64,000 nucleotides of DNA. Source: Panopea generosa. Lineage: Eukaryota; Mollusca; Bivalvia; Adapedonta; Hiatellidae. The notes under the pieces are model-generated. The model saw only the letters and a list, made by a program, of their open reading frames with translations. It was not told the DNA's origin and made no database searches. The DNA is taken from NCBI GenBank assembly GCA_029582155.1, contig CM055912.1, positions 3,048,191 to 3,112,190 on the forward strand. The letters run 5' to 3'. The translations under genes were made by a program, and so were the position numbers. Positions 14,056-43,296 of the stretch are shown piece by piece (position 1 is the stretch's first letter; every line of letters starts with the position of its first letter).

Positions 14056-17000
14056 CGTGGAATGCGTGGTCAAGTGGTAGAGCATGAACGGAGGGTGTCG
14101 GAGCGCGTGGTCCAGTGGTAGAGCATGAATGGAGGGTCTTGGAGCGCGTGGTCCAGTGGTAGAGCATGAACGGAGGGTCGTTGAACGCGTGGTCCAGTGG
14201 TAGAGCATGAACGGAGGGTCGTGGAGTGCGTGGCCCAGTGGTAGAGCATGAACGGAGGGTCGTGGAGTGCGTGGCCCAGTGGTAGAGAATGAACGGAGGG
14301 TCGTAGATTGCGTGGCCTAGTGGTAGAGCATGAACGGAGGGTCTTGGAGCGCGTGGTCCAGTGGTAGAGCATGAACGGAGGGCCGTGTAGTGCGTGGTCC
14401 AGTGGTAGAGCATGAACGGAGGGTCTTGGAGCGCGTTGTCCAGTGGCAGAGCATAAACGGAGGGTCGTGAAGCGCGTGGTAAGTGGTAGAGCATGCACGG
14501 AGGGTCGTTGAGCGCGTGGTCCAGTGGTAGAGTATGAACGGAGGGTTATGGGGCGCAAGGTCCAGTGGTAGCGCATAAACGGAGGGTCGTGGACCAGTGG
14601 ACCAGTGGTAGAGCATGAACGGAGGGTTATGGAGTGCGTGGCCCAGCAGTAGAGCATGAACGGAGGGTCGTGGAGTGCGTGGCCCAGCGGTAGAGCATGA
14701 ACGGAGGGTCGTGGAGTGCGTGGCCCAGCGGTAGAGCATGAACGGAGGGTCGTGAAACGCGTGGTCAGGTGGTAGAGCATGAACGGAGGGTCATGGAGCG
14801 CGTGGTCCGGTGGAATAGTATGAACGGAGGGTCGTGGAGCGCGTGATCCAGTGGTAGAGCATGAACGGAGGGTCGTGGAGCGCGATGGTCGTGGAGTGCG
14901 TTGTCAAGTGGTAGAGCATGAACGGAGGGTCGTGGAGCGCGTAGTCCAGTGGTAGAGCATGAACGGAGGGTCGTGGAACGCGTGGCCCAGTAGTACAGCA
15001 TGAACGGAGGGTCGTGGAGCGTGTGGTCAAGTGGTACAGCATGAACGAAGGGTCATGGAGCGCGTGGCCCAGTGGTAGAGCATGAACGGAGGGTCGTAGA
15101 TTGCGTGGCCCTGTGTTAGAGCAGGAACGGAGTGTCGTGGAATGCGTGGTCCAATGATAAAGCATGAACGGAGGGTCGTGGAATGTGTGGTCCAATGATA
15201 GAGCATAAACGGAGGGTCGTGGAGCGCGTGGCCCAGTGGATGAGTATGAATTAAGAATCGTGGAACGCGTAGTCCAATGGTGGAGCGTGGAATGCGCGGT
15301 CCAGTGGTAGAGCATGAACGGAGGGTCATGGAGCTCGTGGTCAAGTGGTAGAGCATGAACGGAGGGTCATGGAGCTCGTGGTCAAGTGGTAGAGCATGAA
15401 CGGAGGGTCGTGGAGTGCGTGGTCTAGTGGTAGATCAAGAACGGAGGGTCATGGAGTGCTGGTAGAACATGAACGGAGCGTCATGGAGCTCTTGGTCAAG
15501 TGGTAGAGCATGAACGGAGGGTCGTGGAGTGCGTGGTCTAGTGGTAGAGCAAGAACGGAGGATCATGGAGTGCGTGGCCCAGTGGTAGAGCATTAACAGA
15601 GGGTCATGGAGTGCTTGGCCCAGTGGAAGAGCATGAACGGAGGGTCATGGAGTGCGTGGCCCAGCGGTAGAGCATGAACAGAGGGTCTCGGAGCGCGTGG
15701 CCCAGTGGAAGAACATGAACGGAGGGTCGTGGAGTGCGTGTCCCAACGGTAGAGCCTGAACAGAGGGTCTCGGAGCGCGTGGCCCAGTGGTAGAGCCTGA
15801 ACGGAGGGTCATGGAGCGCGTGGCCCAGTGGTAGAACATGAACGGAGGGTCATGGAGTGCGTGGCCCAGTGGTATAGCATGAACGGAGGGTCGTGGAGCG
15901 CGTGGCCCAGTGGTATAGCATGAACGGATGGTCGTGGAGCGCGTGGCCCAGTGGTATAGCATGAACGGAGGGTCGTGATGCGCGTGGCCCAGTGGTAGAA
16001 CATGAACGGAGGGTCATGGAGTGCGTGGCCCAGTGGAAGAGCAAGAACGAAAGGTCATGGAGCGCGTGGCCCAGTGGTAGAACATGAACGGAGGGTCATG
16101 GAGTGCGTGGCCCAGTGGTAGAGCATGAACGGAGGGTCGTGGAGCGCGTGGCCAAGTGGTAGAGCATGAACAGAGGGTCTCGGAGCGCGTGGCCCAGTGG
16201 TAGAACATGAACGGAGGGTCGTGGAGTGCGTGGCCCAGTGGTAGAGCATGAACGGAGGGTCGTGGAGTGCGTGGCCCAGTGGTAGAGCATGAACAGAGGG
16301 TCGTGGAGCACGTGGCCCAGTGGTAGAACATGGACGGAGGGTCGTGGAGCGCGTGGTCCAATGGTAGATTATGAACGGAGGGTCGCGGAGTGCGAGGGTC
16401 GTTGAGTGCGTTGTCCAGTGGTAGAGCATGAACGGAGGGTCATGGAGTGCGTGGCCCAGCCGTAGAGCATGAACAGAGGGTCATGGAGCGCGTGGCCCAG
16501 TGGTAGAGCATGAACGGAGGGTCATGGAGTTCGTGGCCCAGCGGTAGAGCATGAACGGAGGGTCGTGGAGCGCGTGGCCCAGTGGTAGAACATGAACGGA
16601 GGGTCGTGGAGCGCGTGGTCCAATGATAGATTATGAACGGAGGGTCGCGGAGTGCGATGGGCGTGGAGTGCGTTGTCCAGTGTAAGAGCATGAACGGAGG
16701 ATCCTAGAGCGCGTGGTTTTGTGGTAGAGCATGAACGGAGAGTCGTGGAACGCGTGGTCCAGCGGAAGAGCATGAACGGAGGGTCGTGGAGCGCGTGGTC
16801 CATTGGTAGAGCATGAACGGAGGGTCTTGGAACGCGTGGTCCGGTAGTGGAGTATGAACGGAGGGTCATGGAATGCATGGTCCAGTGGTAGAGTATGAAC
16901 GGAGAGTTGTGGAAAGCGTGGTCAAGTGGTAGAGCATGAACGGAAGGTCGTGGAACGCGTGGTCCGGTGTTGGAGCATGAACGGAAGTCGTTGAATGTGT

Positions 17001-17483
17001 TGTCCACCGGTAGAGCATGAACGGAGGGTCGTGGAGTGCGTGGCCCAGTGGTAGAGCATGAACAGAGGGTCTTGGAGCGCGTGGTCCAGTGGTAGAGCAT
17101 GAACGGAGGGTCGTGTAAAGCGTGGTCCGGTGTTTGAGCATGAACGGAGGGTCGTGGAACGCATGGTCCAGTGGTAGAGCATGAACGGAGAATTATGGAA
17201 AGCGTGATCCAATGGTAGAGCATGAATGGAGGGTCGTGGAACGCGTGGTGTGGTGGTGGAGCATGAACGGAGGGTCGTGGAATGCGTGGTCAAGTGCTAG
17301 AGAATTAATGGAGAGTTGTGGAATGCGTGGTACTGTGGTAGAGCATGAACAGAAGTCGTGGAATGTGTTGTCCACCGGTAGAGCATGAACAGAGATTCGT
17401 GGAACGCATGGTCCAGTGGTAGAGCATGAACGGAGGGTCGTGGAGTGCATGGTCCTGTGGTGGAGCATGAATGGAGGATCGTG
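14056..17483 (+). repeat. 41-bp satellite grown from the tRNA head of SINE A, about 80 copies
   Basis: Units read GTGGAGCGCGTGGCCCAGTG then GTAGAGCATGAACGGAGGGTC with point changes and occasional deletions. TGGYCCAGTGG in each is a match to the Pol III A box. The last unit runs directly into a B box (17484-17494) and SINE A body sequence, and the unit aligns with the heads of the SINE A copies at 5290 (minus), 48503 and 57521. As 41 is not a multiple of 3, reading continues through all three phases, giving long chimeric open frames on the minus strand (for example 14070-14780 and 16522-17223) with a 41-residue period. I treat these as non-genic. Confidence 0.93.
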
Positions 17484-17553
17484 GGTTCGATTCCTCGTTA
17501 CAATACACATTTTCTGCATATGCTTTGTATTGGTTATACCCAGGAAGACTTCG
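17484..17553 (+). mobile_element. SINE A remainder at the end of the 41-bp array: B box and body
   Basis: GGTTCGATTCC at 17484-17494 is a perfect B box. It is followed by TTTTCTGCATATGCTTTGTA, TTGGTTATACCCAGGAAGAC and TTCGACTCG, matching the body of other SINE A copies; the CACGGTTATGTGTGGTG segment is missing and the 3' tail is lost. Confidence 0.75.
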
Positions 17554-18619
17554 ACTCGTTTATATAGTTTGTTTTTGTCATCTTTTCCTAAATTTAAACT
17601 AAACTATTCGTGTTGTCCGGTGACAAAATGGACACAACAGCTTTGTTTGCGACTTCTCGGTAATAACGTTTGTTTCTGATTTAAGAGAAATCGCCGAGGT
17701 AGTCCGAGTTTTTGTTTTAACCAATCAACAACTTTATCCGAATCTCAGTACAATTGTTTGCAAAAGGAATTGTCAGAACCATATTAGACATATCATATGG
17801 AAAATAATGCATTTACTTGACCAAATATTATGTTTTGTTTTCTGTTAATCATAAGTATAAGAACTATTTTATCGACTTTTTATCTTTATACTAAGAATAT
17901 ATTTTAAACTATTATCCTGTGAATCATATGAAAATGATTTGAAAGTTTACTCGAATTAGAATTAATTAAATACACGTTGTGTTGATATTGCATTTTATTA
18001 CACCAGTCTTCAGTCAAACATAAAACGTCAATCTTGATTATAAAGTGAACAGTTTTGATTAATAAAAGAAGAATTTTGACATTAAAATCGCACGAGCCTT
18101 GCAATCCGTATAGATAAACGTGTAATAAACAGACAAATTAAACCGTTGTACCCAGACTTAATACACACTAATTATCTTTTGTTAAGTTAAATACGTGAAT
18201 AATTATTGTAGAACAATTGCTTTCGGAAATGAAAATATTGCGTTCGCTAATTCTCAATCGCCACACAAACGATATCGTGGATTGTTTAGAAACTAAAATT
18301 CTATGAAATCATCTTTAGAATCTGTTCCGTTGCGCTTAATGTTGCACTATGACAAAAAACAAGTTAAAATATGTAATATACAGGGACGATCTTACACGCT
18401 CCTGACATACAGAACATGCAGGGAATGAATCCTAAAATGTTACAGACTGAAAAACATTATATTTGCTGATATTAATATGATATAAAAATACAGAAGTCAA
18501 AATATAACTACTTTTTTAAACTATTCAACATACACAAAACATTAAAAATAGGTAAAAAATCATACTGTATAATACACTCATTTCAAATAAAAACATATTA
18601 CCAAACCGTTGATATCTAA
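17554..18619. other. No gene recognised
   Basis: AT-rich. No coding, RNA or repeat signal beyond simple A/T runs. Confidence 0.4.
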
Positions 18620-18696
18620 TAAATGACTATCATGGATTGTTGTTGTTGTTGTATGGTGTAAAGTGTCACTTTTAACACTATTTCAGTTACATTGCG
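18620..18696 (-). mobile_element. SINE B 3' end flanking its 69-bp array
   Basis: TTGTTGTTGTTGTATGGTGT, GTGTCACTTTTAACACTATT and TCAGTTACATTGCGACGGTG are the reverse complement of the SINE B 3' end seen at about 509-556 (TGACTGAACAATTGTTGAAA). It runs without a gap into the 69-bp array. Confidence 0.65.
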
Positions 18697-19556
18697 ACGG
18701 TGCCTAGTGGAGCGCTGCCGCTGTTGCAGACACATGTTATGATACCCCAGTCACATTATACTGACACGGTGCCTACTGGAGCGCTGCCGCTGTTGCAGAC
18801 ATATGGTATGATACCCCAGTCACATTATACTGACACGGTGCCTACTGGAGCGCTGCCGCTGTTGCAGAAACATGGTATGATACCCCGGTCACATTATACT
18901 GACACGGTGCCTACTGGAGCGCTGCCGCTGTTGCAGACACATGATATGATACCCAGGTCACATTATACTGACAATGTGCCTACTGGAGCGATGCCGCTGT
19001 TGCAGATACATGGTAAGATACCCCAGTTACATTATACTGACACGGTGCCTACTTGAGCCTTGCCGCTGTTGCAGACACATGGTATTATACCCTGGTCACA
19101 TTATACTGACACCGGGCCTACTGGAGCGCTGCCGCTGTTGCAGACACATGTTATGCTACCCCAGTCACATTATACTGACACGGTGCCTACTGGAGCGCTG
19201 CCGCTGTTTCAGACACATGGTATGATAACCCGGTCACATTATACTGACACGGTGCCTACTTGAGCGCTGCCGCTGTTGCAGACACATGTTATGATACCCC
19301 GGTCACATTATACTGACACGGTGCCTACTGGAGCGCTGCCGCTGTTGCAGACACATGGTATGATACCCCAGTCACATTATACTGACACGGGCCTACTGGA
19401 GCGCTGCCGCTGTTGCAGACACTTGGTATGATACCCCGGTCACATTATACTGACACCGGGACTACCGGAGCGCTGCCGCTGTTGCAGACACATGGTATGA
19501 TACCCCGGTCACATTATACTGACACGGTGCCTACTTGAGCACTGCCGCTGTTGCAG
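18697..19556 (-). repeat. 69-bp satellite grown from SINE B body, about 12 copies
   Basis: Unit contains CGGTGCCTACTGGAGCGCTG, CCGCTGTTGCAGACACATGG, TATGATACCCCAGTCACATT and ATACTGACA. Its reverse complement overlaps the SINE B body at about 415-500 (GTGACTGG, GGTATCATACCATGTGTCTG). Unit length divisible by 3 keeps a frame open (18700-19056), but stops appear in later copies. It is bounded on the left by the SINE B 3' end and on the right by the 37-bp array. Confidence 0.9.
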
Positions 19557-19970
19557 TATCACTGTATACCATACGGAGATATTGAACTGCGGGTATCACT
19601 ATATACCATACGGAGATATTGAACTGCGGGTATTACTGTATATCAAACGGAGATTTTGAGCTGCGGATATCACTGTATACCATACGGAGATATTGAACTG
19701 CGGGTATCACTGTATACCATACGGAGATATTGAACTGCGGGTATCACTATATACCATACGGAGATATTGAACTGCGGGTATCACTGTATACCATTGGGAG
19801 ATATTGAACTGCGGGTATCACTGTATACCATACGGAGATTTTGAACTGCGGGCATTACTATAAACCATACGGAGAAATTGAACTGCAGGTATTACTATAT
19901 ACCATACGGAGATGTTGAACTGTATATATTACTATATATACCATATGGAGATATTGAACTGTAGGTATTA
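19557..19970. repeat. 37-bp minisatellite, about 11 copies
   Basis: Unit TATCACTGTATACCATACGG then AGATATTGAACTGCGGG; copies drift toward the right end. It begins at the very base where the 69-bp array stops. Confidence 0.93.
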
Positions 19971-20559
19971 TTATATGATTTTTCATATTTATGACAGTTT
20001 TAACGAAGTTTTTGAAATAAAAGAAGTGGTGTCGAGCATATATAAACAAATAATTGATAAAAACATAGTTAAATATTACAAATTGCGATATTATTTAGTT
20101 AATCATACAGATAGTAAGGGATTTTTCTTGCTCAATTGTTATAAATGAGCAGAAATATGCAACAACAGATACACTTTAGCAGTATTTAGGCACCGTTGAA
20201 CCTTTAAGATCTTTCCTCAGATGTAATATTATACAGGAGTATACAATTCTTACTCAGGTTACATATACACATAGCACCTTGATGGTCTGGTGGGGGTCCA
20301 ACAGTCAGTGTGTTATTTCTGTAAAAGAATATACGTTACGGTAATGGTAGCGGGGAAATGGTCCGCAAATTAAAGAATGCAGAGTTATGAATGTTGTTTA
20401 CCATTTGTTACATAATGAGACAGAATATATAACAACAATTACATAATATAACAACAATTACATGACAATTATAACAAGACAAACTAAACGTATAATAATT
20501 GATGCATCTTAATTTCCCATAGCTGTTAAGGCTCAAATGAACCTTAGAGTGAGAAAATA
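19971..20559. other. No gene recognised
   Basis: AT-rich. A short ACAACAATTACATAATATA-type duplication lies near 20430-20465. No coding exon. Confidence 0.4.
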
Positions 20560-20564
20560 TTCAA

Positions 20565-20620
20565 GGGGGTTTCGGGGGCATGCCCCCCCCCCCCCCCCCC
20601 CCCTCACCCCCGAATTTTTT
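20565..20620. repeat. G/C-tract palindrome with C21 run
   Basis: GGGGGTTTCGGGGGCATGCC is followed by about 21 C (20583-20603) and TCACCCCCG. GGGGGCATGCCCCC at 20574-20587 is a perfect palindrome. Could form a hairpin, or i-motif on this strand and G-quadruplex on the other. Part of a dispersed repeat by appearance. Confidence 0.7.
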
Positions 20621-20796
20621 TTTGATTCCTAGATCGTCTGTGGTGTGTTCTAGGGTGTTTGCTACAACAGTTTCATTTTCATTAAATTTGTATGATTTTG
20701 GTGTAATAAATTTACAGTAATTTAGCTACAGCAACGCTGTGATGTGATGCAGACGCCGCCATGATGTTTACATTGACACCGGGTAACGATTATTAT

Positions 20797-20821
20797 GTGT
20801 TAGTATATTATATACTAACAC
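20797..20821. repeat. Perfect 12-bp inverted repeat with 1-bp centre
   Basis: GTGTTAGTATAT, T, ATATACTAACAC. It could be the terminus or hairpin of a small element; nothing else identifies it. Confidence 0.7.
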
Positions 20822-20879
20822 CGGTTCCGGTAGCTAACAGTAGGTCAGACACAACTAATACACTAACCAATTTTTTTAC

Positions 20880-21275
20880 CGTTTTATTCATAAAACCATA
20901 GTATTTATTTTCGTGAACTTTGTTTTAAGTGAAATGCGTGAGGAATTACATAGTCAGCGTGAGACCGAGATTTCATTACAAAAATCGTGGGACTCACGGC
21001 GAAACCGTGAAACTTGACAGGTATGAATTTTCCAATGTAAGTCTCTGTGTCGATTTGGTTGTTATGGAAAATATTCACGATACATCAGTTGTTTTGCAAG
21101 TTTCGTATTCTGTACAATACAACGCAACACACGGTTGGCGTCTTATCAATACCACGTGTGCATATTTCCGTTGTTTTGAATATGATATAGACGATATATT
21201 CTTCTCGCCGGAAATTATGAGACCACTGGGATGAGATTACAAAGACATAAACATTACCGCTCTCCCATTATGTTT
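20880..21275. mobile_element. Dispersed element E, copy 2 (single-copy core)
   Basis: Aligned in order with 11150-11520, including CAATACCACGTGTGCATATTT and CATTACCGCTCTC. A 101-residue open frame (20929-21234) overlaps it. I recognise no domain in that frame, and the homologous copy at 11.2 kb does not preserve it, so it is not called a gene. Confidence 0.5.
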
Positions 21276-21312
21276 GGATTTTCTTATTACAAAAGTATTT
21301 ATTGTTTTGTTA

Positions 21313-22364
21313 CCAAGGTTAGTAGTTTGTTACGAGAAATGAACCGTTCATAGCCATCACTGGTTGTAATTCCTGGTTAAATACATAGACAACAAGGTTA
21401 GTAGTTTGTTACGGGGTAATGAACCGTTCATAGCCATCACTGGTTGCACTTCCTGGTTAAATACACGGACAACAGGGTTAGTAGTTTGTTACGGAGTAAT
21501 GAACCGTTCATAGCCATCACTGGTTGCACTTCCTGGTTAAATACGTAGACAACAGAGTTAGTAGTTTGTTACGGAGTAATGAAACGTTCATAGCCATCTC
21601 TGGTTGCACTTCCTGGTTAAATACACGGACAACAGGGTTAGTAGTTTGTTACGGAGTAATGAACCGTTCATAGCCATCACTGGTTGCACTTCCTGGTTGA
21701 ATACGTAGACAACAGGGTTAGTAGTTTGTTACGGAGTAATGAACCGTTCATAGTCATCACTGGTTGCACTTCCTGGTTAAATACGCGGACAACAGGGTTA
21801 GTAGTTTGTTACGGAGAAATGAACCGTACATAGCCATCACTGGTTGCACTTCCTGGTTAAATACACAGACAACAGGGTGAGTAGTTTGTTACTGAGCAAT
21901 GGACCGTTCATAGCCATCACTGGTTGTACTTCCTGATTAATTACATAGACAACAGGGTTAGTAGTTTGTTACGGAGTAATGAACCGTTCATAGCCATCAC
22001 TGGTTGTACTTCCTGGTTAAATACGCGGACAACAGGGTTAGTAGTTTGTTACGGAGTATGAACCGTTCATAGCCATCACTGGTTGCACTTCCTGGTTAAA
22101 TACACGGACAACAGGGTAAGTAGTTTGTTACGGAGAAATGAACCGTTCATAGCCATCACTGGTTGCACTTCCTGGTTAAATACACGGACAACAGGGTTAG
22201 TAGTTTGTTACGGAGTAATGAACCGTTCATAGCCATCACTGGTTGCACGTCCTGGTTACATACATAGACAACAGGGTTAGTAGTTTGTTACGGAGTAATG
22301 AACCGTTCATAGCCGTCACTGGTTGCACTTCCTGGTAAAATACATAGACAACAAGGTGAGTAGT
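21313..22364. repeat. 80-bp minisatellite, about 13 copies
   Basis: Unit contains GGTTAGTAGTTTGTTACGGA, GTAATGAACCGTTCATAGCC, ATCACTGGTTGCACTTCCTG and GTTAAATACACGGACAACAG. GAACCGTTC is a short palindrome in each unit. It runs straight into the next array. Confidence 0.95.
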
Positions 22365-24478
22365 TTGTTAGGTTTGAAGTGCATGATAGGCCGCTAGATG
22401 CTGCTGTCATAATGATAAACTGTTACAAGGTACGAAGTGCATGATAGGCCGCTAGATGCTGCTGTCATAATGATAAACTGTTACAAGGTACGAAGTGCAT
22501 GATAGGCCGCTAGATTCTGCTGTCATAATGATAAACTGTTACAAGGTTCGAAGTGTATGATAGGCCGCTAGATACTGCTGTCATAATGAAAAACTGTTAC
22601 AAGGTTCGAAGTGTATGAAAGGCCGCTAGATACTGCTGTCAAAATGAAAACTGTTACAAGGTACGAAGTGCATGATAGTCCGCTAGATTCTGCTGTCATA
22701 ATGATAAACTGTTACATGGTACGAAGTGCATGATAGGCCGCTAGATACTGCTGTCATAATAATAAACTGTTACAAGGTTCGAAGTGCATGATAGGCCGCT
22801 AGATACTGCTGTCATAATGATAAACTGTTACAAGGTACGAAGTGCATGATAGGCCGCTAGATACTGCTGTCATAATGAAAAACCTGTTACAAGGTTCGAA
22901 GTGCATGATAGGCCGCTAGATACTGCTGTCATAATGATAAACTGTTACAAGGTTCGAAGTGCATGATAGGCCGCTAGATTCTGCTGTCATAATGACAAAC
23001 TATTACAAGGTACGAAGTGCATGATAGGCCGCTAGATACTGCTGTCATAATGATAAACTGTTACAAGGTACGAAGTGCATGATAGGCCGCTAGATACTGC
23101 TGTCATAATGATAAACTGTTACAAGGTACGATGTGCATGATAGGCCGCTAGATACTGCTGTCATAATGAAACAACTATTACAAGGTTCGAAGTGCATGAT
23201 AGGCCTCTAGATACTGCTGTCATAATGATAAACTGTTACAAGGTACGAAGTGCATGATAGGCCGCTAGATACTGCTGTCATAATGATAAACTGTTACATG
23301 GTACGAAGTGCATGATAGGCCGCTAGATACTGCTGTCATAATGAAAAACTGTTACAAGGTTCGAAGTCCATGATAGGCCGCTAGATACTGCTGTCATAAT
23401 GAAAAACTGTTACAAGGTTCGAAGTGCATGATAGGCCGCTAGATACTGCTGTCATAATGAAAAACTGTTACAAGGTACGAAGTGTATGATAGGCCGCTAG
23501 ATATTGATGTCATAATGATAAACTGTTACAAGGTACGAAGTGCATGATAGGCCGCTAGATACTGCTGTCATAATGATAAACTGTTACAAGGTTCGAAGTG
23601 CATGATAGGCCGCTAGATACTGCTGTCATAATGAAAAACTGTTACAAGGTACGAAGTGTATGATAAGCCGCTAGATACTGATGTCATAATGATAAACTGT
23701 TACAAGGTTCGAAGTGCATGATAGGCCGCTAGATACTGCTGTCATAATGAAAAACTGTTACAAGGTACGAAGTGTATGATAGGCCGCTAGATAATGATGT
23801 CATAATGATAAACTGTTACAAGGTACGAAGTGCATGATAGGCCGCTAGATACTGCTGTCATAATGAAAAACTGTTACAAGGTTCGAAGTGCATGATAGCC
23901 CGCTAGATACTGCTGTCATAATGAAAAACTGTTACAAGGTACGAAGTGCATGATAGGCCGCTAGATACTGCTGTCATAATGATAAACTGTTACAAGGTAC
24001 GAAGTGCATGATAGGCCGCTAGATACTGCTGTCATAATGAAAAACTGTTACAAGATTCGAAGTGCATGATAGGCCGCTAGATACTGCTGTCATAATGATA
24101 AACTGTTACATGGTACGAAGTGCATGATAGGCCGCTAGATACTGCTGTCATAATGAAAAACTGTTACAAGGTTCGAAGTGCATGATTGGCCGCTAGATAC
24201 TGCTGTCATAATGATAAACTGTTACAAGGTTCGAAGTGCATGATAGGCCGCTAGATACTGCTGTCATAATGAAAAACTGTTACAAGGTTCGAAGTGCATG
24301 ATAGGCCGATATATACTGCTGTCATAATGATAAACTGTTACAAGGTACGAAGTGCATGGTAGGCCGATAGATACTGCTGTCATAATGATAAACTGTTACA
24401 AGGTTCGAAGTGCATGATAGGCCGCTAGATACTGCTGTCATAATGATAAACTGTTACAAGGTTCGAAGTGCATGACAG
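22365..24478. repeat. 58-bp minisatellite, about 36 copies
   Basis: Unit contains GGTACGAAGTGCATGATAGG, CCGCTAGATACTGCTGTCAT and AATGATAAACTGTTACAA. Two-state variation recurs at GGTACGAAG/GGTTCGAAG and AATGATAAAC/AATGAAAAAC. The junction with the 80-bp array shares TGTTA. Confidence 0.95.
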
Positions 24479-26636
24479 GCCTGTGTAACGAGAACACTTT
24501 AACAATCAGAAACATACACAGTTTAGTTATTTTTCTAGTTTATTTGATCAATTTAGTGCTCTATGTTTAAGATGAATATAACTCAAATTAAATATTAAAT
24601 ACAAACAAAATACGATATACGTAAAACGACGAGTTAAACATAAATGTAAACAACATCAAAATAACCAAAAAACATATATAAGTTTTGAGAGAAATGTTAT
24701 GCCACACATATTATGTAAAAATTGTGTCAGCATTTTATTGTTATATAATTTATTTTCTTTGACACTCGCAGATTACAAACAATTTTTGTGTTATAATTTT
24801 AAGCGATTTAGATTTATTTGATATTTGAAAATGGTTTGCACATGATGGTGTTAAATAACTAACAATCAAAGCATATTTGATTGAATCTAAATACACACAA
24901 TTCAAGACTGATTATGGATTAAATATATCTAAAGAATAAGTTTGCAATTTTCATCTTGCATGAATGTTAACACATTTTATTCTGGTGTTTTCTTAAAGCA
25001 TTTTAATGTATTTTTGTTGATTAACGTCTCGTAGACTAATTCGTGTCAAAACATGTTACATTTTTACAACATATATCATTCTTTAAATAATTGCAAGAGA
25101 CGGTGGATTTGTATAAGTGTTTGTTTTGACAGGTGTCGCTTTGTTGCATAATGTATATTTCCTGAACTAGTATATGTACATCAAAGGCTTTCGATTTAGC
25201 ACCTTTTGTTATAACAATGATTGGTATTTAAGATAATCTATATTTTATCAGATAATTTGATTAGTCAAAATAAATGTTATATTATGTTTGGCTTTAAAAC
25301 GAGACAGTTAGTTTTGAGAGTTTTAGGAAGAGAGAAGTCATATTAGAAGCAAGTTAAAAAAGTGGTTTTCCACAGTGGTTACAGATATCGGATTTCCGAA
25401 GAAACAATTTATACATGTGTGCTAAATTTACGTTGATTGTGAATAACTTAATTAACCGTTTTGTCTGGTTATACCGACATAGATAAATAAATATTGGTTC
25501 TCCAATGGTCAAAAATTGATTACCCTTATTATATTTAAAAGGAACGAAACTAGAAGTTGGACTTGCGTGTATTTATTTCACCTATTCACCCATATCAAAT
25601 AAATAGACTAAAACATTACAGCGTAACAGAAATACTCGGCCACGATTTTCGCCTTGTATTATAACTTTTATAAGAGAGATAATAAATGTTTGATACAATA
25701 AAATAACGGATTGCTTAAACATTACAGCGATATACACTCAAGAGATATGAACACGTCACATATTTAGCACGTGTGTATAATGTAAATATCTCTATTCTAC
25801 AGTAATTATCGTCTTTTGATTTTATTGGTTGTTTACTTGAGATGTTACCGTATAATTTGATTCAACATTCGTTGGTGTCATTTTTTCATTTCTGAGTAAG
25901 TTCCCACTAAACCCTGTGATACGTTTTCATATCTCTTCCTGTGTTGTGTGACCCTTGCTTGTATTTTGTTTTCATTGTTGCTAATATTTCAGCTCCTTTG
26001 AGATCATGGTGCGCTACGATGTGCAACAGAAAATAGACTACTTCTCTAGTCGGTGTTAGAGGGGGTTCGTGGTGTTCAATTTCTCACTATCTCTTATCTA
26101 CCAACTCAATAAAACACAATAAAACCGAGCCTCCCATTGTCTTGTCTAGACTGTGTTCTGCTCTTCCAGCTGATCTCTTTATGATATATTAGTATTTGCG
26201 TCACTTCGTCTGCCACACACGTGACTTGTTATCGATACAGACGTAAGCTCATTGTAATAACTGGTATAGAGGGAGATAAACGCTTCATAGTTATATTCAC
26301 CTCTGCTGCAGACATGTTTTTAATTTGTAACGAAAGTGTACACCCAGTGTTTGTCCACCGTGTCCTATTGTAGCCTTTACGACTTTAGAAGATTTTGACA
26401 TTATCTGCAAGTAACTGTATTGTATGGCGTTGGGTGCTGCTTTTAGAAACACTATATGTCTGCTGTACTAATCTTATCAGCACTATTGAATATACATCAC
26501 GAATAGATTGCCAAGCTACAAGCAGCAAAGAAGTCAAATTGAATACTATTGAACTCTATGAATCCATAAAGAAAGTTTTTTAAAGTAGTTTTTTCCTAGC
26601 GGAAATGTATCCGCTGATAAACAAGCACAATGACTG
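24479..26636. other. Long AT-rich stretch without genes
   Basis: No convincing exon, RNA gene or array in about 2.1 kb. A 62-residue open frame at 26395-26583 has no recognised motif. Confidence 0.4.
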
Positions 26637-28976: not shown

Positions 28977-31741
28977 TGATACTGTAACCGGGGGATGTAT
29001 AAGCGTTGGGCATCTTTCATGTTGCTGGTGTTTTGTTGTTAATGCAATACTTAAAGTCCAATATATTGCAATATATTGTAGAAAATCCTTGCACCAGTTA
29101 ATAGTGTAATATGTCACATCCCTTTTTATTTTCTTCGTAACGTAAATCAAAAAGTTCTGAAATTTAAAATATAATTTCGATTAATTCCATCTTTTGCATC
29201 TTGTCCCAGACATGCCTACAAATAAACTCTCGATATCTTAATCCGCGCGCAAGCGTTTCACGTGGTATTAGAAAACGACGTGATAAACGTAACCAACTGA
29301 AGTGCAGAAACTGGGCACATGATCAAGTAAACATCCGGGCATGTGAGCAAGAAACCCTAATCAAACGAAGAAGCAAACTGTATGAATTTGTTATCGAAAT
29401 TTAGTCAAAGGGTGACATTGCGTCATAAATATGCCAGGCCATCAAATAATTAGTCAATGTGCGAAAACCAATTCATAACGAAGTGATAGCAATTTGAATC
29501 GGATGAATGTACCAGTAAGATATAAAAAAGCTAACTTTTATATGAATTAAAACAATATGTTTTACAATCATGATTACCATGCTTCCCAAAAATATAAAAA
29601 AATAACACACAAAACTAAAAAAATAGCTCTAAAAAATTAAGAAATATTTATATTAACCATATTTGTAGTCATATATGGTCGAATAAATATTAAAGCAAAT
29701 AATGTGTTGTCGTCTTTTAAAAAATCTTTCCCATAATTTCAAATCATTTTTTCTTTCTAGAAAACTATAGAGTATATATAACAAGGATCGTTATATTTTT
29801 TATCACGACAAATTTGAAATTATGGAAAAGTTTTTTAATACATGACAGCATATTATTTGTCTTTTTTTTTTATATAAAATAAATTGTATATATGCTAGTT
29901 TATGTCTTACAAATATTTTAAATAATTTACGAATTGTTTCATAAAATGTGTCACGTGATAATACATAATATTGTATGTAATGAGACACATTATATGTTTA
30001 AGTTACAAATACGGAAATCTTGAATCTTGAACCTTTGCTATTTCTTCGACCATTTAAGACAATAAAAATGGTTAATATAAACATGTCAACCATTTATAAG
30101 AAACATGGCCTTTCCTAAAAAGAAACAAAATTAAGAGTCTGCAGCTTTTCTGGGGTAATTCAATTTGATATTTAGATTATCATGTATTTTTTATTTCTTA
30201 ATGATAATGAGACGTTTTTTTATCCATATAAATAAACAAAATTTAAAATATTTAAACCGTTTTTTCCCGATACTTCCATTAAATGCAGCAGTGATGCTCT
30301 TTACCACATATCGAACCTACCCATAGTTAACAATGTTGACATAGACGTTACATAACTGTTGTTTTGATTTACACCTTTGAATGAGAGATAACGAAAACAC
30401 AACTTATTAGCAGACACGTTTATTAGTGCCAAGGCCAAATTCAAAATGTAATGGTATACATAAATCAAAGTGAACGAACACGTAATTGGTAAAGTATAAT
30501 CATTAAGGCAATTTCAAGTGCCTGCCAAAACATGAACTAAATTGTATTGACATTACGTAACTAGAACTTAAAGTGCAGCAAAATAAATTAATTCTATTTT
30601 TGCAGGTCATCATTTAAGAATTGAAAGTGCTGCAGTAGCTATATCGGTGTTCAGATCCATCACAACTTTGCACGCGCCAAGGTCGGTAGCTGTCTGAACA
30701 CGTGGACTAAGGACTCCATTACAGTTATTTGCTAACCTACCAAGTAGTTGATGTTTATACTCATGGTAATTGTACACAATTATGGCAATTACACAAATCA
30801 TGGCAAGTTTTACATGCGTATTGTAATTGTATATCTATAGCATGAACATTTTTACATTATTTAAAGGTAAGTGAACTCATTCATGTTAACATTTATATAT
30901 TGATGATATTTGAACACATTTGGTAAGTTCTACAACTATGTTTATTTTGTATGATAATGATAACTGAGCACACTTATGATAATTTTATAAAGTCTGCATA
31001 CATCCTTGGTACACACTCTTGATTATTGCATATAATGATACACATGATAATTTCACCCTATTTTAACACTGCTTTAGTATATCAAAGGTTTGTTCAGATC
31101 CAATTGACCCTTCTGAACTATACGGTGGATATTTTCATTAAGTCGAAACTCCAATGATTATTGGGATTCACCTCGATAAACTCTTTATTCATAACCCGAT
31201 GCTCTCGTGACCTTAAATTTAGTAGAATTATTGTTCGATTACTTATTGAGCTTATTACAAAGGTGGAATTGTCATCATTATCCCAGGAAACATGTCAAAG
31301 CCTGATTGATGAGCTCTGATATCGTGTGTACACGGGTGTTATATTGAAGAAAATATAACCCCATTAAATGTTTCTCGGTACGTGCCTATATTTTTACAAA
31401 TGTATATTGACCTAAATACTGACTATGTTTTGTCCTAGCAATTTACAAAACACAAGACAGTTCTTAACTGGATTTTGATTGCACAAAAAGAAATGTACAG
31501 ATCAGATGTTACAAACAGTCTGGAAAACAAAAACACATGTTTAGATATTTATTTTTTATATTAAAACAAAACAATATATATATTTGCACACAATATATAA
31601 AAGGATCAGAACGAAAGATTAGATTTTATAGAGTTTTTATCTTTGAAGAACTTACACACCCAATAACACCATTTACAACGTGGAATTTAAAAGCGAAGAA
31701 GTAGTTAGATGATATCGATTCTTTACCAAGAGACAATCAAT
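28977..31741. other. Long AT-rich stretch without a supported gene
   Basis: Open frames at 29201-29404 (plus) and 30610-30801 (minus) are slightly richer in GC than the surroundings but show no domain I can name. The minus-strand one ends in TDLGACKVVMDLNTDIATAA and could be an exon or fossil coding fragment. No arrays. Confidence 0.35.
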
Positions 31742-33735: not shown

Positions 33736-33776
33736 AGCATGGACATAGTTAACAAACAGAATAATTACAAAGTACA

Positions 33777-33779
<3 letters not shown>

Positions 33780-33818
<39 letters not shown>
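33780..33818. repeat. (CA)n microsatellite
   Basis: About 19 uninterrupted CA dinucleotides. It generates a valine-cysteine-repeat reading on the minus strand that is not a gene. Confidence 0.97.
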
Positions 33819-33822
<4 letters not shown>

Positions 33823-35295: not shown

Positions 35296-35559
35296 AGAAG
35301 TAAGAGTGAACTATGCGAGCCTATAGTTTATCATGCATGTGGAATTTAAAACACTTACGGACTGAAAAACTTGGTTCCGCAAGTTGTTTCATCGGGAGTC
35401 GTTTTTTGTTATTTAGTCACTCGGATTGTTGTAAAATTAAAAAAAAAAAAAATGGCGTGTTTTAAAACATCTCTTATGGAGTTAAAAAGTTTTAGATAAG
35501 ATCATTTATAATAGTTATCTCACATCCATGCTCGATCTTCCGCGATATTCCTTTTCAAT

Positions 35560-35615
35560 AAATGTATCTACGCTAGGCTGATATCAATAAATGTATCTAC
35601 GCGGCTGATATCAAA
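35560..35615. repeat. About 31-bp direct duplication
   Basis: AATAAATGTATCTACGC followed by a GGCTGATATCA segment occurs twice (about 35559 and 35587), differing by a 3-bp insertion (TAG). Confidence 0.75.
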
Positions 35616-35646
35616 CGAATGTTTTTTATTTACAAGAAATACAATT

Positions 35647-35835
35647 TTGGATTTTTTATTATTGTATTTGTCTACACTAAGAAGAAGCAAAAGAAATGAT
35701 ACACAACAACTGTTATCAGGCTTCCTGGAATGGGTAGCACAACGTGACTATGATTTAACATGTAGACCTGGTCGAATATTTGTTATCCGTGCATTCATTA
35801 TTGTTGAAGAAACAGGCGATGAGTATCTGCTGTAA
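35647..35835 (+). pseudogene. Possible Ty3/gypsy RNase H fragment (fossil)
   Basis: The frame contains FLEWVAQRDYDLTCRPGR, resembling the W-x5-(Y/F)-D-x4-RPG block just before the ADALSR motif at the end of gypsy-type RNase H domains. ADALSR itself is absent and the frame ends soon after, so only a scrap could remain. By-eye similarity only. Confidence 0.3.
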
Positions 35836-35935
35836 AAGTGATATAGTTTTACAATTTACCAAAAAATGACCAAAACCGACAACTTAATATTGAAATAAAC
35901 ATGCCTGAAAATAAAACTTGTCTAATTAACGACAC

Positions 35936-36010
35936 TGGATCGATGGTGCAGTAGATAGGACGTTGCCCTTTTATGATAGGGTTGCGAGTTCGATTTCCAG
36001 ATTGACCCTA
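35936..36010 (+). mobile_element. tRNA-like SINE head
   Basis: TGGTGCAGTAG at 35944-35954 matches the A box; AGTTCGATTTCC at 35987-35998 is a near B box. tRNA-sized unit with no pairing acceptor stem. Confidence 0.5.
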
Positions 36011-36604
36011 CGGCCTCTAAAAAACCCAGTAAGGACTTACTTAGGAAGCAGGCTCCAAAGAACGCTTCATCTAAATTCTGAGCTTACTTCGTAATTGCGT
36101 AATATATATATATTAGTATACTTGGTAATTAACCAAAGACAGAGAAAACTCGGAATGACGTCATGTGTTTTTGATTTGAAAACAAAAGATGCAATAGACA
36201 AATAAACATTCGTGGCTTGTAGTACGTGTTTCTTTAAATATTAACATGTAAGCATAACTTAATTTAAACGACTCATATTCCATACACCTTTGTATAATTA
36301 TGAATACTTAAGTCATTGCTATAATCTGGTTTACAGTATTTCTTATTACATACGTAATTCAAAGTAGAGGTATGTAGAGTAAATAACTAATTGCTGGCAT
36401 ATGTCTCTCATTTGCAATTTTCGTATTTTGTGTTAACATTGGGGCAGAATGGCCATGATATTTGTTTTCTAATATCTGCAATGAAACGTTTCTGCGAAGT
36501 ATGCTTCTGATTGGTTGTGTTTCACAAAAAATAAAATATTTTTGTGTTTTTGAATGCGTTGGTTCTGTTGGAAAAAGAACATTTTGTAACGTATTGATAT
36601 ACTA
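36011..36604. other. No gene recognised
   Basis: AT-rich, containing a short TA repeat near 36105-36115. The open frame starting at 36462 runs into the SINE A head and is not a gene. Confidence 0.4.
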
Positions 36605-36720
36605 TAGAGAAGTGGTTAGTGGTAAAGCATTGGTACGAAAACTGCGGCGTTGTGGGTTCATTCCTCTGTCACGGTTATGTGTGGTGTCATTGAGAAAAGC
36701 ATTAATTCTGCATATGCTTA
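36605..36720 (+). mobile_element. SINE A 5' part flanking the 25-bp array
   Basis: A degraded A box (TGGTTAGTGGTAAAGC) and B box (GGTTCATTCC at 36655-36664), then CTGTCACGGTTATGTGTGGT, GTCATTGAG and CTGCATATGCTTA. The same order is found in the other SINE A copies. The next base starts the 25-bp array. Confidence 0.8.
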
Positions 36721-39700
36721 GTACTGGCTCTACTCTGGAAGATTAGTACTGGCTCTACCCTGGAAGATTAGTACTGGCTCCACCCTGGAAGATTAGTACT
36801 GGCTCCACCCCGGAAGATTAGTACTGGCTCCACCCCGGAAGATTAGTACTGGCTCCACCCCGGAAGATTAGTACTGGCTCCACCCCGGAAGATTAGTACT
36901 GGCTCCACCCCGGAAGATTAGTACTGGCTCCACCCTGGAAGATAAGCACTGGCTCCACCCCGGAAGATTAGTACTGGCTCCACCCCGGAAGATTAGTACT
37001 GGATCCACCCAGGAAGATTAGTACTGGCTCCACCCCGGAAGATTAGTACTGGCTCCACCCTGGAAGATTAGTACTGGCTCCACCCCGGAAGATTAGTACT
37101 GGCTCCACCCCGGAAGATTAGTACTGGCTCCACCCAGGAAGATTAGTACTGGCTCCACCCCGGAAGATTAGTACTGGCTCCACCCCGGAAGATTAGTACT
37201 GGCTCTACCCTGGAAGATTAGTACTTGCTCCACCCTGGAAGATTAGTACTGGCTCCACCCTGGAAGATTAGTGCTGGCTCTAAAATGGAAGATTAGTACT
37301 GGCTCGAAAATGGAAGATTAGTACTGGCTCCACCTTGGAAGATTAGTACAGGCTCCACCCTGGAAGATTAGTGCTGGCTCTAAAATGGAAGATTAGTACT
37401 GGCTCCACCCTGGAAGATTAGTACAGGCTCCACCCTGGAGATTAGTGCTGGCTCTAAAATGGAAGATTAGTACTGGCTCCACCCAGGAAGATTAGTACTG
37501 GCTCCACCCTGGAAGATTAGTACCGGCTCCACCCTGGAAGATTAGTACTGGCTCCACCCTGGAAGATTAGTACTGGCTCCACCCTGGAAGATTAGTACAG
37601 GCTCCACCCTGGAAGATTAGTGCTGGCTCTAAAATGGAAGATTAGTACTGGCTCCACCCTGGAAGATTAGTACTGGCTCCACCCTGGAAGATTAGTACAG
37701 GCTCCACCCTGGAAGATTAGTGCTGGCTCTAAAATGGAAGATTAGTACTGGCTCCATCCTGGAAGATTAGTACTGGCTCCACCCTGGAAGATTAGTACTG
37801 GCTCTACCCTGGAAGATTAGTACTGGCTCTACCCTGGAAGATTAGTACTGGCTCCACCCTGGAAGATTAGTACTGGCTCTACTCTGGAAGATTAGTACTG
37901 GCTCTACCCTGGAAGATTAGTACTGGCTCTACCCTGGAAGATTAGTACTGGCTCTACCCTGGAAGATTAGTACTTGCTCCACCCTGGAAGATTAGTACTG
38001 GCTCCACCCTGGAAGATTAGTACTGGCTCCACCCTGGAAGATTAGTACTGGCTCCACCCTGGAAGATTAGTACAGACTCCACCCTGGAAGATTAGTGCTG
38101 GCTCTAAAATAGAAGATTAGTACTGGCTCGACCCTGGAAGATTAGTACAGGCTCCACCCTGGAAGATTAGTACAGGCTCCACCCTGGAAGATTAGTGCTG
38201 GCTCTAAAATGGAAGATTAGTACTGGCTCCACCCTGGAAGATTAGTACTGGCTCTACCCTTGAAGATTAGTACTGGCTCCACCCTGGAAGATTAGTACAG
38301 GCTCCACCATGGAAGATAAGTACTGGCTCCACCCTGCAAGATTAGTACTGGCTCCACCCTGGAAGATTAGTACAGGCTCCACCCTGGAAGATTAGTGCTG
38401 GCTCTAAAATGGAAGATTAGTACTGGCTCCACCCTGGAAGATTAGTACTGGCTCCACCCTGGAAGATTAGTACTGGCTCTACCCTGGAAGATTAGTACTG
38501 GCTCCACCCTGGAAGATTAGTACTGGCTCTACTCTGGAAGATTAGTACTGGCTCTACCCTGGAAGATTAGTACTTGCTCCACCCTGGAAGATGAGTACTG
38601 GCTCCACCCTGGAAGATTAGCACTGGCTCCACCCTGGAAGATTAGTACTGGCTCCACCCTGGAAGATTAGTACAGACTCCACCCTGGAAGATTAGTGCTG
38701 GCTCTAAAATGGAAGATTAGTACTGGCTCCACCCTGGAAGATTAGTACAGGCTCCACCCTGGAAGATTAGTAAAGGCTCCACCCTGGAAAATTAGTGCTG
38801 GCTCTAAAATGGAAGATTAGTACTGGCTCCATCCTGGAAGATTAGTACTGGCTCTACCCTGGAAGATTAGTACTGGCTCCACCCTGGAAGATTAGTACTG
38901 GCTCCATCCTGGAAGATTAGTTCTGGCTCTACTCTGGAAGATTAGTACTGGCTCTACCCTGGAAGATTAGTACTGGATCCACCCTGGAAGATTAGTACTG
39001 GCTCCACCCTGGAAGATTAGTACTGGCTCCACCCTGGAAGATTAGTACTGGCTCCACCCTGGAAGATTAGTACTGGCTCCACCCTGGAAGATTAGTACAG
39101 GCTCCACCCTGGAAGATTAGTGCTGGCTCTATCCTGGAAGATTAGGACTGGCTCTACACTGGAAGATTAGTACTGGCTCTACCCTGGAAGATTAGTACTT
39201 GCTCTACCCTGGAAGATTAGTACTGGCTCTACCCTAGAAGATTAGTACTGGCTCCACCCTGGAAGATTAGTACTGGCTCTAAAATGGAAGATTAGGACTG
39301 GCTCTACACTGGAAGATTAGTACTTGCTCTACCCTGGAAGATTAGTACTGGCTCTACCCTGGAAGATTAGTACTGGCTCCACCCTGGAAGATTAGTACTG
39401 GCTCTAAAATGGAAGATTAGTACTGGCTCCACCCTGGAAGATTAGTACTGGCTCCACCCTGGAAGATTAGTACTGGCTCCACCCTGGAAGATTAGTACTG
39501 GCACTTAAATGGAAGATTAGTACTGGCTCTACCCTGGAAGATTAGGACTGGCTCTACACTGGAAGATAAGTACTTGCTCTACCTTGGAAGATTAGTACTG
39601 GCTCTACCCTGGAAGATTAGTACTGGCTCTACCCTGGAAGATTAGTACTGGCTCCACCCTGGAAGATTAGTATTGGCTCTAAAATGGAAGATTAGTACTG

Positions 39701-42700
39701 GCTCCACCCTGGAAGATTAGTACTGGCTCCACCCTGGAAGATTAGTACTGGCTCCACCCTGGAAGATTAGTACTGGCACTTAAATGGAAGATTAGTACTG
39801 GCTCTACCCTGGAAGATTAGGACTGGCTCTACACTGGAAGATTAGTACTGGCTCTACTCTGGAAGATTAGTACTGGCTCTACCCTGGAAGATTAGTACTG
39901 GCTCTACCCTGGAAGATTAGTACTGGCTCTACCCTGGAAGATTAGTACTTGCTCCACCCTGGAAGATTAGTACTGGCTCTACCCTGGAAGATTAGTACTG
40001 GCTCCACCCTGGAAGATTAGTACTGGCTCCACCCTGGAAGATTAGTACAGACTCCACCCTGGAAGATTAGTGCTGGCTCTAAAATAGAAGATTAGTACTG
40101 GCTCGACCCTGGAAGATTAGTACAGGCTCCACCCTGCAAGATTAGTACAGGCTCCACCCTGGAAGATTAGTGCTGGCTCTAAAATGGAAGATTAGTACTG
40201 GCTCCACCCTGGAAGATTAGTACTGGCTCTACCCTGGAAGATTAGTACTGGCTCCACCCTGGAAGATTAGTACAGGCTCCACCCTGGAAGATAAGTACTG
40301 GCTCCACCCTGTAAGATTAGTACTGGCTCCACCCTGGAAGATTAGTACAGGCTCCACCCTGGAAGATTAGTGCTGGCTCTAAAATGGAAGATTAGTACTG
40401 GCTCCACCCTGGAAGATTAGTACTGGCTCCACCCTGGAAGATTAGTACTGGCTCTACCCTGGAAGATTAGTACTGGCTCCACCCTGGAAGATTAGTACTG
40501 GCTCTACTCTGGCAGATTAGTACTGGCTCTACCCTGGAAGATTAGTACTTGCTCCACCCTGGAAGATGAGTGCTGGCTCTAAAATAGAAGATTAGTACTG
40601 GCTCGACCCTGGAAGATTAGTACAGGCTCCACCCTGGAAGATTAGTACAGACTCCACCCTGGAAGATTAGTGCTGGCTCTAAAATGGAAGATTAGTACTG
40701 GCTCCACCCTGGAAGATTAGTACAGGCTCCATCCTGGAAGATTAGTACAGGCTCCACCCTGAAAAATTAGTGCTGGCTCTAAAATGGAAGATTAGTACTG
40801 GCTCCATCCTGGAAGATTAGTACTGGCTCTACCCTGGAAGATTAGTACTGGCTCTACCCTGGAAGATTAGTACTGGCTCCATCCTGGAAGATTAGTACTG
40901 GCTCTACTCTGGAAGATTAGTACTGTCTCTACCCTGGAAGATTAGAACTGGCTCCACCCTGGAAGATTAGTACTTGCTCCACCCTGGAAGATTAGTACTG
41001 GCTCCACCATGGAAGATTAGTACTGGCTCCACCATGGAAGATTAGTACTGGCTCCACCCTGGAAGATTAGTACAGGCTCCACCCTGGAAGATTAGGACTG
41101 GCTCTACACTGGAAGATTAGTACTGGCTCTACCCTGGAAGATTAGTACTTGCTCTACCCTGGAAGATTAGTACTGGCTCTACCCTAGAAGATTAGTACTG
41201 GCTCCACCCTGGAAGATTAGTACTGGCTCTAAAATGGAAGATTAGGACTGGCTCTACACTGGAAGATTAGTACTTGCTCTACCCTGGAAGATTAGTACTG
41301 GCTCTACCCTGGAAGATTAGTACTGGCTCCACCCTGGAAGATTAGTACTGGCTCTAAAATGGAAGATTAGTACTGGCTCCACCCTGGAAGATTAGTACTG
41401 GCTCCACCCTGGAAGATTAGTACTGGCTCCACCCTGGAAGATTAGTACTGGCTCCACCCTGGAAGATTAGTACTGGCACTTAAATGGAAGATTAGTACTG
41501 GCTCTACCCTGGAAGATTAGGAATGGCTCTACACTGGAAGATTAGTACTTGCTCTACCCTGGAAAATTAGTACTGGCTCTACCCTGGAAGATTAGTACTG
41601 GCTCTACCCTGGAAGATTAGTACTGGCTCCACCCTGGAAGATTAGTATTGGCTCTAAAATGGAAGATTAGTACTGGCTCCACCCTGGAAGATTAGTACTG
41701 GCTCCACCCTGGAAGATTAGTACTGGCTCCACCCTGGAAGATTAGTACTGGCACTTAAATGGAAGATTAGTACTGGCTCCACCCTGGAAGATTAGTACTG
41801 GCACTTAAATGGAAGATTAGTACTGGCTCCACCCTGGAAGATTAGTACTGGCTCCACCCTGGAAGATTAGTACTGGCTCCACCCTGGAAGATTAGTACTG
41901 GCACTTAAATGGAAGATTAGTACTGGCTCCACCCTGGAAGATTAGTACTGGCACTTAAATGGAAGATTAGTACTGGCTCTACCCTGGAAGATTAGGAATG
42001 GCTCTACACTGGAAGATTAGTACTTGCTCTACCCTGGAAAATTAGTACTGGCTCTACCCTGGAAGATTAGTACTGGCTCTACCCTGGAAGATTAGTACTG
42101 GCTCCACCCTGGAAGATTAGTATTGGCTCTAAAATGGAAGATTAGTACTGGCTCCACCCTGGAAGATTAGTACTGGCTCCACCCTGGAAGATTAGTACTG
42201 GCTCCACCCTGGAAGATTAGTACTGGCACTTAAATGGAAGATTAGTACTGGCTCTACCCTGGAAGATTAGGACTGGCTCTACACTGGAAGATTAGTACTG
42301 GCTCTACCCTGGAAGATTAGTACTTGCTCTACCCTGGAAGATTAGTACTGGCTCTACCCTGGAAGATTAGTACTGGCTCGACCCTGGAAGATTAGTACTG
42401 GCTCTAAAATGGAAGATTAGTACTGGCTCCACCCTGGAAGATTAGTACTGGCTCCACCCTGGAAGATTAGTACTGGCACTTAAATGGAAGATTAGTACTG
42501 GCTCTACCCTGGAAGATTAGTACTGGCTCTAACCTGGAAGATTAGTACTTGCTCTACCCTGGAAAATTTGTACTGGCTCCACCCTGGAAGATTAGTACTG
42601 GCTCCACCCTGGAAGATTAGTACTGGCTCTAAAATGGAAGATTAGTACTGGCTCCACCCTGGAAGATTAGTACTGGCTCTAAAATGGAAGATTAGTACTG

Positions 42701-43240
42701 GCTCCACCCTGGAAGATTAGTACTGGCTCCACCCTGGAAGATTAGTACTGGCTCTACCCTGGAAGATTAGTACTGGCTCTACCATGGAAGATTAGTACTG
42801 GCTCTAAAATGGAAGATTAGTACTGGCTCCACCCTGGAAGATTAGTACTGGCTCCACCCTGGAAGATTAGTACTGGATCCACCCTGGAAGATTAGTACTG
42901 GCTCCACCCTGGAAGATTAGTACTGGCTCTACCCTGGAAGATTAGTGCTGGCTCTAAAATGGAAGAGTAGTACTGGCTCTACCCTAGAAGATTAGTACTT
43001 GCTCTACCCTGGAAGATTAGTACTGGCTGCACCTGGAAGATTAGTACTGGATCTACTCTGGAAGATAAGTACTGGCTCTACCCTGGAAGATTAGTACTGG
43101 CTCTACCCTGGAAGATTAGTACTGGCTGCACCCTGGAAGATTAGTACTGGATCTACTCTGGAAGATAAGTACTGGCTCTACCCTGGAAAATTAGTACTGG
43201 CTGCACCCTGGAAGATTAGTACTGGCTCCACCTTGGAAAA
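36721..43240 (+). repeat. 25-bp satellite grown from SINE A body, about 260 copies
   Basis: Unit GTACTGGCTCCACCCTGGAA plus GATTA, with recurring variants (CTACCC, CTAAAAT, CACTTAAAT, GTACAGG, GTGCTGG). The left flank is SINE A up to GCATATGCTTA, the right flank resumes with ACTTCGAGTG, CACTTGTTTCGCAATC and the AAAATAAATAAG tail, so the array replaces one GTACTGGTTCTACCCAGGAA-type segment inside a single SINE. Long-range copies lie exactly 1,975 bp (79 units) apart over 38.1-41.8 kb. No open frame persists because 25 is not a multiple of 3 and GATTAG gives stops. Confidence 0.95.
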
Positions 43241-43296
43241 CTTCGAGTGTTGCATGCACTTGTTTCGCAATCAATGAAAAATAAATAAGATTTAAC
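43241..43296 (+). mobile_element. SINE A 3' part after the 25-bp array
   Basis: CTTCGAGTGTTGCATGCACT, TGTTTCGCAATCAATGAAAA and ATAAATAAGATTTAAC match the 3' ends of SINE A at 48650-48700, 52640-52680 and 57660-57700. Confidence 0.8.

Follow-up and report, generated by a model that had tools for sequence, protein, structure and literature searches.

Tandem arrays derived from different segments of one SINE family within a 64-kb window

Because arrays come to outgrow the sequence that they arose from, the beginnings of a satellite can seldom be observed. The stretch of 64,000 nucleotides analyzed here (the window; C19:3048191-3112190, on a contig of 42.2 Mb in an assembly of 1.47 Gb in 39 contigs) raises the question of how two tandem arrays, with units of 41 and 25 bp, came to lie within copies of one family of short interspersed elements (SINEs), designated SINE A. 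Tandem arrays, called with Tandem Repeats Finder (TRF), occupy 24,592 bp of the window (38%; 20 arrays), and the set of large arrays comprises the 11 with lengths of at least ∼400 bp, smaller ones being left out. Analysis revealed that both SINE A arrays derive from the SINE, with direct support from unit homology, SINE flanks, the genome-wide occurrence of the SINE, the presence of the arrays in a second regional copy, their length differences and block repeats in the 25-bp array. They are very probably minisatellites that each began as one small internal duplication in an old insertion and then grew in place. No function of the arrays is indicated.

A profile built from the single copies recovered SINE A in all six places of the window named by the first-pass annotation, with none further outside the arrays among the matches listed (to E ∼0.002). 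Profile search, consensus alignment and TRF delimited three full-length, unexpanded copies, located at 5080-5297 (reverse strand), 48497-48714 (forward) and 57514-57721 (forward; a 33-bp array starts ∼120 bp downstream), together with a forward-strand copy split into 52142-52221 and 52549-52709. The insert that splits this copy (∼327 bp, 52222-52548) has an AAAC microsatellite inside, and its junctions show similar bases (CTGCCACGG / CTGTCACGG). The single copies in the window are old, with pairwise identities of 74 to 78% and identities to the consensus of 77 to 86% (76 to 90% for all window pieces). In a genome search with the copy at 57514-57721, all 40 scored candidates matched on many contigs (best 40 of 1562 first-look candidates), and 38 lay outside the query copy and its duplicate; SINE A is a genuine family with copies dispersed through the genome. 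The consensus was built from 28 of those 38 loci elsewhere in the genome (L042-L069), independent of the window copies, and three same-contig pairs with equal or similar scores may be duplicates, so that the sample does not amount to 28 independent copies. Such like-scored pairs on one contig (C5, C11, C19) hint at retained haplotypes or many local duplications. With an A box (TGGTCCAGTGG) at consensus position 11 and a B box (GGTTCGATCC) at 54, SINE A has the two boxes of a tRNA-derived SINE and would be classed as such, its head being tRNA-like by sequence only; neither ARAGORN nor Rfam (gathering threshold) reported a tRNA in the window. GTGTCCTTGAGCAAGACACTT in SINE A is reminiscent of the V domain, and SINE A may belong to the V-SINE superfamily (RUDI-like). 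Another copy, at C19:2409827-2410209 (L032), is interrupted by an element of ∼187 bp that occurs in 38 other places at 87 to 94% identity among the matches listed (best 40 of 5000 candidates).

Both array units could be mapped to different segments of the 28-locus consensus, as the first-pass annotation expected. The 41-bp array (14055-17484, forward strand) comprises 83.1 copies by TRF, in line with the ∼80 counted before, and anchored parsing yielded 81 unit anchors with a mean identity to the unit consensus of 0.906 (71 units of exactly 41 bp, 64 of them distinct). Its unit equals SINE A consensus 1-54 minus 9 bp, with 44 of 45 aligned bases identical, and includes the A box but not the B box; the earlier description of an amplified tRNA head therefore holds for this segment, with the correction that 9 bp of the anticodon region are missing. 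Compared with the four single SINE A copies, the 41-mer scored 25 to 50 against null maxima of 19 to 24 (200 shuffles per comparison, here and for the 25-mer), exceeding all shuffles in 4/4 cases. The last unit is continuous with a SINE A remnant (17440-17574, forward strand; profile match 17439-17554) that carries the B box GGTTCGATTCC together with a portion of the body, aligns to consensus 1-167 with 34 gap positions and is missing the 3′ tail as well as a large part of the central region. Likeness between units is 0.871 at lag 1 versus 0.835 at lag 30. In a genome search with a query that contained two 41-bp units (best 40 of 776 candidates), matches confined to these units were found only at two C19 sites, and three matches on C1 and C2 consisted of a part-unit, B box and body, as expected of single SINE copies.

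The 25-bp array (36718-43238, forward strand) stems from the body of another copy. TRF gave 260.9 copies, matching the earlier figure of ∼260, and anchored parsing gave 261 anchors with a mean identity to the unit consensus of 0.936 (258 units of exactly 25 bp, 52 of them distinct). The unit agrees with SINE A consensus 117-141 at 22 of 25 positions, and the 25-mer scored above all shuffles for two of the four single copies. SINE sequence adjoins this array on both sides, with the head and central body before it (36605-36717, forward strand; profile match 36617-36744), diverged at 76% identity to the consensus, and the 3′ part and tail directly after it (43213-43300, forward strand; profile match 43212-43300). 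Thus, the SINE sequence reported as still attached to the arrays was confirmed as B box and body after the 41-bp array and as head and tail around the 25-bp array, although the remnant at the former is partial. Within the 25-bp array, two internal repeats were exact over 370 and 345 bp, compared with a maximum of 218 bp in 100 unit-order shuffles, and no lag gradient in neighbour likeness was seen, unlike in the 41-bp array. A search pattern spanning 1.5 units of the 25-bp array (≤3 mismatches) had 281 genome matches, all on one strand, and those listed lie only at two C19 sites.

Since SINE A copies holding both segments once are present on many contigs, the arrays were born from the SINE, and the reverse order, with SINEs derived from arrays, does not hold. 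The two arrays occupy different SINE copies, involve different segments and have different flanks, indicating that the two duplications were separate events, as had been proposed. At 3.4 kb (41-bp) and 6.5 kb (25-bp), they are better described as local minisatellites than as the giant satellites that the first-pass annotation had called them; satellite DNA in the strict sense is megabase-scale, multi-locus and heterochromatic.

We propose that, in each of two old insertions of this dispersed tRNA-headed SINE, a short internal stretch was duplicated once in tandem. The duplication in the head copy would have brought the bases immediately upstream of the B box up against the start of the SINE, with a short direct repeat at the junction, and that in the body copy would have linked consensus 141 to 117, without a perfect repeat. 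Slippage and unequal exchange may then have lengthened each duplication where it lay, so that the remaining SINE sequence persisted as flanks, and lengths would have kept changing after a regional duplication or haplotype split. The direct repeat flanking the 41-bp segment reads GTGG in the consensus and TCGTGG at the locus, which fits the short-direct-repeat model (PMC6947457, PMC3389668); a repeat of at least 4 bp accompanies 2.1% of the 6,980 possible consensus segments of 20 to 59 bp.

Several results weigh against this proposal. The junction of the 25-bp unit shows no perfect microhomology, and the initiation mechanisms that have been postulated account for only 6% of human tandem repeats derived from transposable elements (PMC3389668), leaving the direct-repeat trigger weakly founded. 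Block repeats in the 41-bp array reach 82 bp, with no excess over the shuffle maximum of 92 bp. Target-site duplications were not convincingly found at the six SINE A loci, where the best candidates, scored without a control, were 6 to 7 bp exact or 9 bp with one mismatch, and nothing was seen at two of the six. None of the 28 SINE A loci elsewhere overlapped an array (TRF score ≥150), so that expansion is not a general property of SINE A; these loci are best-matching, intact-biased copies, and 0/28 is therefore not a rate. Nor did the 25-, 69- and 87-bp units (the latter two described below) fold better than shuffles, and hairpins thus do not explain which segment was chosen. Hairpin-driven choice as a general cause was rejected by DNA folding of the 11 array units against shuffles, in which folding was strong for the 28-bp (z = −7.7) and 65-bp (z = −5.6) units and mild for the 33-bp (z = −2.4) and 41-bp (z = −2.2) units.

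Expansion was not confined to SINE A. A second family, SINE B, which is SINE-like and apparently tRNA-headed, is represented in the window by one long copy (251-559, forward strand), the only one found, with an A box (TGGCCTAGTGG) and a B-box-like motif (GGTTCCGTTCAAC) assigned by eye, and by an unexpanded 3′ fragment (43617-43720, reverse strand). Judging from unit homology, this family fathered a 69-bp array (18697-19556, reverse strand, 12.5 units by TRF) from its body and an 87-bp array (56330-56999, reverse strand, with 7.1 units by TRF at 56381-56999) from an overlapping body segment. Both units match SINE B 251-559 in reverse complement, and 0/1000 unit shuffles reached either score. 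On its left side, the 69-bp array passes into SINE B 3′ sequence (18660-18696), and the left edge unit of the 87-bp array (56330-56409) resembles plain SINE B more closely. Four of the 10 SINE copies in the window (6 of SINE A, 4 of SINE B) and 4 of the 11 large arrays are accordingly counted as SINE-born. An origin from SINE B is no more than suggested for a 37-bp array (19556-19976), whose score was reached by 38/1000 unit shuffles against the adjacent segment and by 263/1000 against all of SINE B. This array abuts the 69-bp array, with unlike units over 18697-19976, and arrays of 80 and 58 bp likewise abut at 21317-24481 (TRF). As a source of the 33-, 58-, 28-, 45- and 65-bp units, SINE B was unsupported versus shuffles, and the 80-bp unit, for which 6/1000 shuffles reached the score in one of many comparisons, is not claimed. 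No other large array exceeded the null for SINE A, the 45-mer tying its maximum (18) against one copy. Among viral contigs, the 41-bp, 25-bp, one SINE A centre and SINE B motifs were unmatched, and one contig containing an 18-base SINE A centre motif scored 9.8 bits with the SINE A profile across 31 bases (E 0.0008, calculated for this contig) and did not match SINE B, a similarity that we regard as chance. Bacterial and archaeal genomes, searched with the SINE B motif as the sole motif, gave no match.

A near-collinear second copy of the region lies ∼635 kb upstream (C19:2413128-2472667), covering most of window positions 3-62163 and extending left to at least C19:2409499 (96%). Outside arrays, the two regional copies show 726 substitutions over 38,604 aligned bases (1.88%; 39,859 non-array bases in all), and either a duplication or the retention of a second haplotype may account for the second copy. 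Both regional copies contain all four SINE-born arrays, indicating for the two SINE A arrays that both births predate the split, and lengths differ for three: 83 units in the window versus ∼68 in the second copy for the 41-bp array, 261 versus 24 + 61 in two neighbouring pieces for the 25-bp array, 12.5 versus 14.5 for the 69-bp array and 7.1 versus 7.1 for the 87-bp array. The edges of the 25-bp array agree between copies, as does the 5′ edge of the 41-bp array, and at the 3′ edge of the latter the B box is lost in the second copy. Among the matches listed, the 25- and 41-bp arrays were seen at two C19 places, near 2.4 and 3.1 Mb. The doubled 25-bp locus spans C19:2450004-2454750, with ∼2.6 kb between its pieces that includes sequence reminiscent of pogo/Tigger elements. 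A non-SINE array varies too: a hairpin-forming 28-bp array has ∼34 units in the window (9423-10377) and ∼2 at C19:2422718-2422776, a clear expansion or contraction. A 53-bp array has 12 units at C19:2443701-2444355 and about one at window ∼30741-30806.

Could the arrays have been born elsewhere and then inserted into, or captured beside, SINE copies? Links between satellites and mobile elements have been described in molluscs (PMC5139131), yet each array stands in register at its matching SINE segment with the neighbouring SINE bases attached, and the confinement of the listed 25-bp pattern matches to two C19 places also speaks against such import, making it highly unlikely. It is extremely unlikely that the two SINE A arrays form a single composite block or a single array that was duplicated: they do share a chromosome segment and are both repeated at C19:2.41-2.47 Mb, but they sit in different SINE copies 22 kb apart with different segments, units and flanks, and the second copy represents the entire region and does not count as a third birth. 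Assembly artefacts might be suspected behind the array lengths or the second regional copy, considering that 1.9% divergence at an offset of 635 kb could mark a retained second haplotype and that other SINE A pairs of like score occur on one contig. We consider this very unlikely in view of the diversity of the units (52 distinct of 258 and 64 of 71) and of the SINE edges common to both copies, and a retained haplotype would in any case leave the SINE origin standing. Internal duplication followed by growth in place is the reading that we prefer.

Whether SINEs are preferred sites of array birth is a separate matter. In a placement test with the 11 arrays collapsed, at least 2 of 11 fell in SINE A alone with P = 0.038. 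When SINE B was counted, 4 of 11 arrays fell in 4.6% of the collapsed sequence (P = 0.0013), a post hoc value, since it was the arrays that drew attention to SINE B. Outside this test, none of six further arrays near the second regional copy matched SINE A or SINE B beyond shuffles (lowest shuffle tail fractions, 0.02 to 0.03 among 10 comparisons each). The placement may be coincidental, with random array formation in a repeat-prone region where SINEs are common targets; this would deny a preference and is compatible with a SINE origin of the arrays. Such coincidence, to which we assign a substantial chance somewhat short of even, is favored by the modest SINE A result, by the 0/6 outcome and by the fact that ∼38% of the window is already array, so that array birth is frequent here whatever the seed, and it is opposed by the post hoc enrichment. 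That SINE copies are preferred minisatellite birthplaces here (4 of the 10 copies in this window, representing two families and three segments or more), with a birth that can be traced stepwise, is a tentative idea that we regard as rather doubtful. Stepwise tracing could be possible in that one locus, the 28-bp array, is expanded in one and near-unexpanded in the other of the paired regional copies.

Minisatellites derived from Alu elements are said to have been reported by Jurka and Gentles in 2006, and among tandem families of SINE origin, Xenopus satellite 1 and the salamander Hy/Pol III have longer units and occupy many loci. Both of these come from the tRNA-related region of SINEs (PMC9659126), as does the 41-bp head array described here, and older cases are listed in reviews (PMC9659126, PMC6947457). 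The closest parallel is a survey of 56 squamate genomes for SINE-derived satellites (sSats; Vassetzky et al. 2023, PMC10702118), in which Gekko japonicus had three sSat variants from different sections of one SINE; sSat arrays reach up to 1000 units. As in squamates, part of a tRNA-related SINE is repeated in tandem, a longer terminal unit continues into the SINE, and several families are involved. Tandem units homologous to a SINE part were found for the 41-, 25-, 69- and 87-bp arrays, at least four units were present in each (83.1, 260.9, 12.5 and 7.1), and a terminal unit running into the SINE was seen for the SINE A arrays and the 69-bp array, the 87-bp array having only a SINE-like edge unit. 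Further marks of sSats are many loci and a heterochromatic or subtelomeric position; the arrays here lie, among the matches listed, at two places on C19. Unlike squamate sSats, with units of 67 to 215 nt in the cases consulted, the SINE A arrays have units of 25 and 41 bp, one of them is bordered by SINE sequence at both ends, an arrangement in the minority there, and two families together account for four arrays within 64 kb. Human tandem repeats arise from any Alu region and average ∼2.3 to 2.4 units (Ahmed and Liang 2012, PMC3389668); the free choice of SINE region and the proposed trigger by short direct repeats are alike, unlike the unit numbers of the SINE A arrays (81 to 261). In the limpet Patella caerulea, PcH-sat (179-bp unit, pericentromeric, ∼10% of the genome) likewise contains a SINE segment, in that case from the different Nin-SINE (PMC11121367), and the available parts of that report do not describe an array inside a single SINE copy, as observed here. 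Published SINE-satellite examples analyzed in the squamate survey were judged inconclusive, and the restriction of sSats to squamates was considered uncertain there (PMC10702118); if the present host, which may be a mollusc, is not a squamate, our findings answer that question.

Two births from one SINE had been thought unusual in the first-pass annotation. The array-rich context (38% of the window), the like behavior of SINE B, the weak enrichment in SINE A and the published squamate, Alu and limpet cases instead make the locus a good example of a known process. It is a clear but not unprecedented example of minisatellite birth, distinctive in its short units, the SINE flanks on both sides of one array and the four arrays in 64 kb. 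Together, the parent elements, the unexpanded sister copies and the second regional copy allow the first duplication to be separated from later growth.

Apart from the arrays, Pfam analysis of 10 open frames gave zinc-finger families as the sole matches above the cut-off. C2H2 zinc-finger frames are located at window 896-1216 and 7463-7837, the latter overlapping a tandem duplication of 101 bp, for which the second regional copy contains three units.

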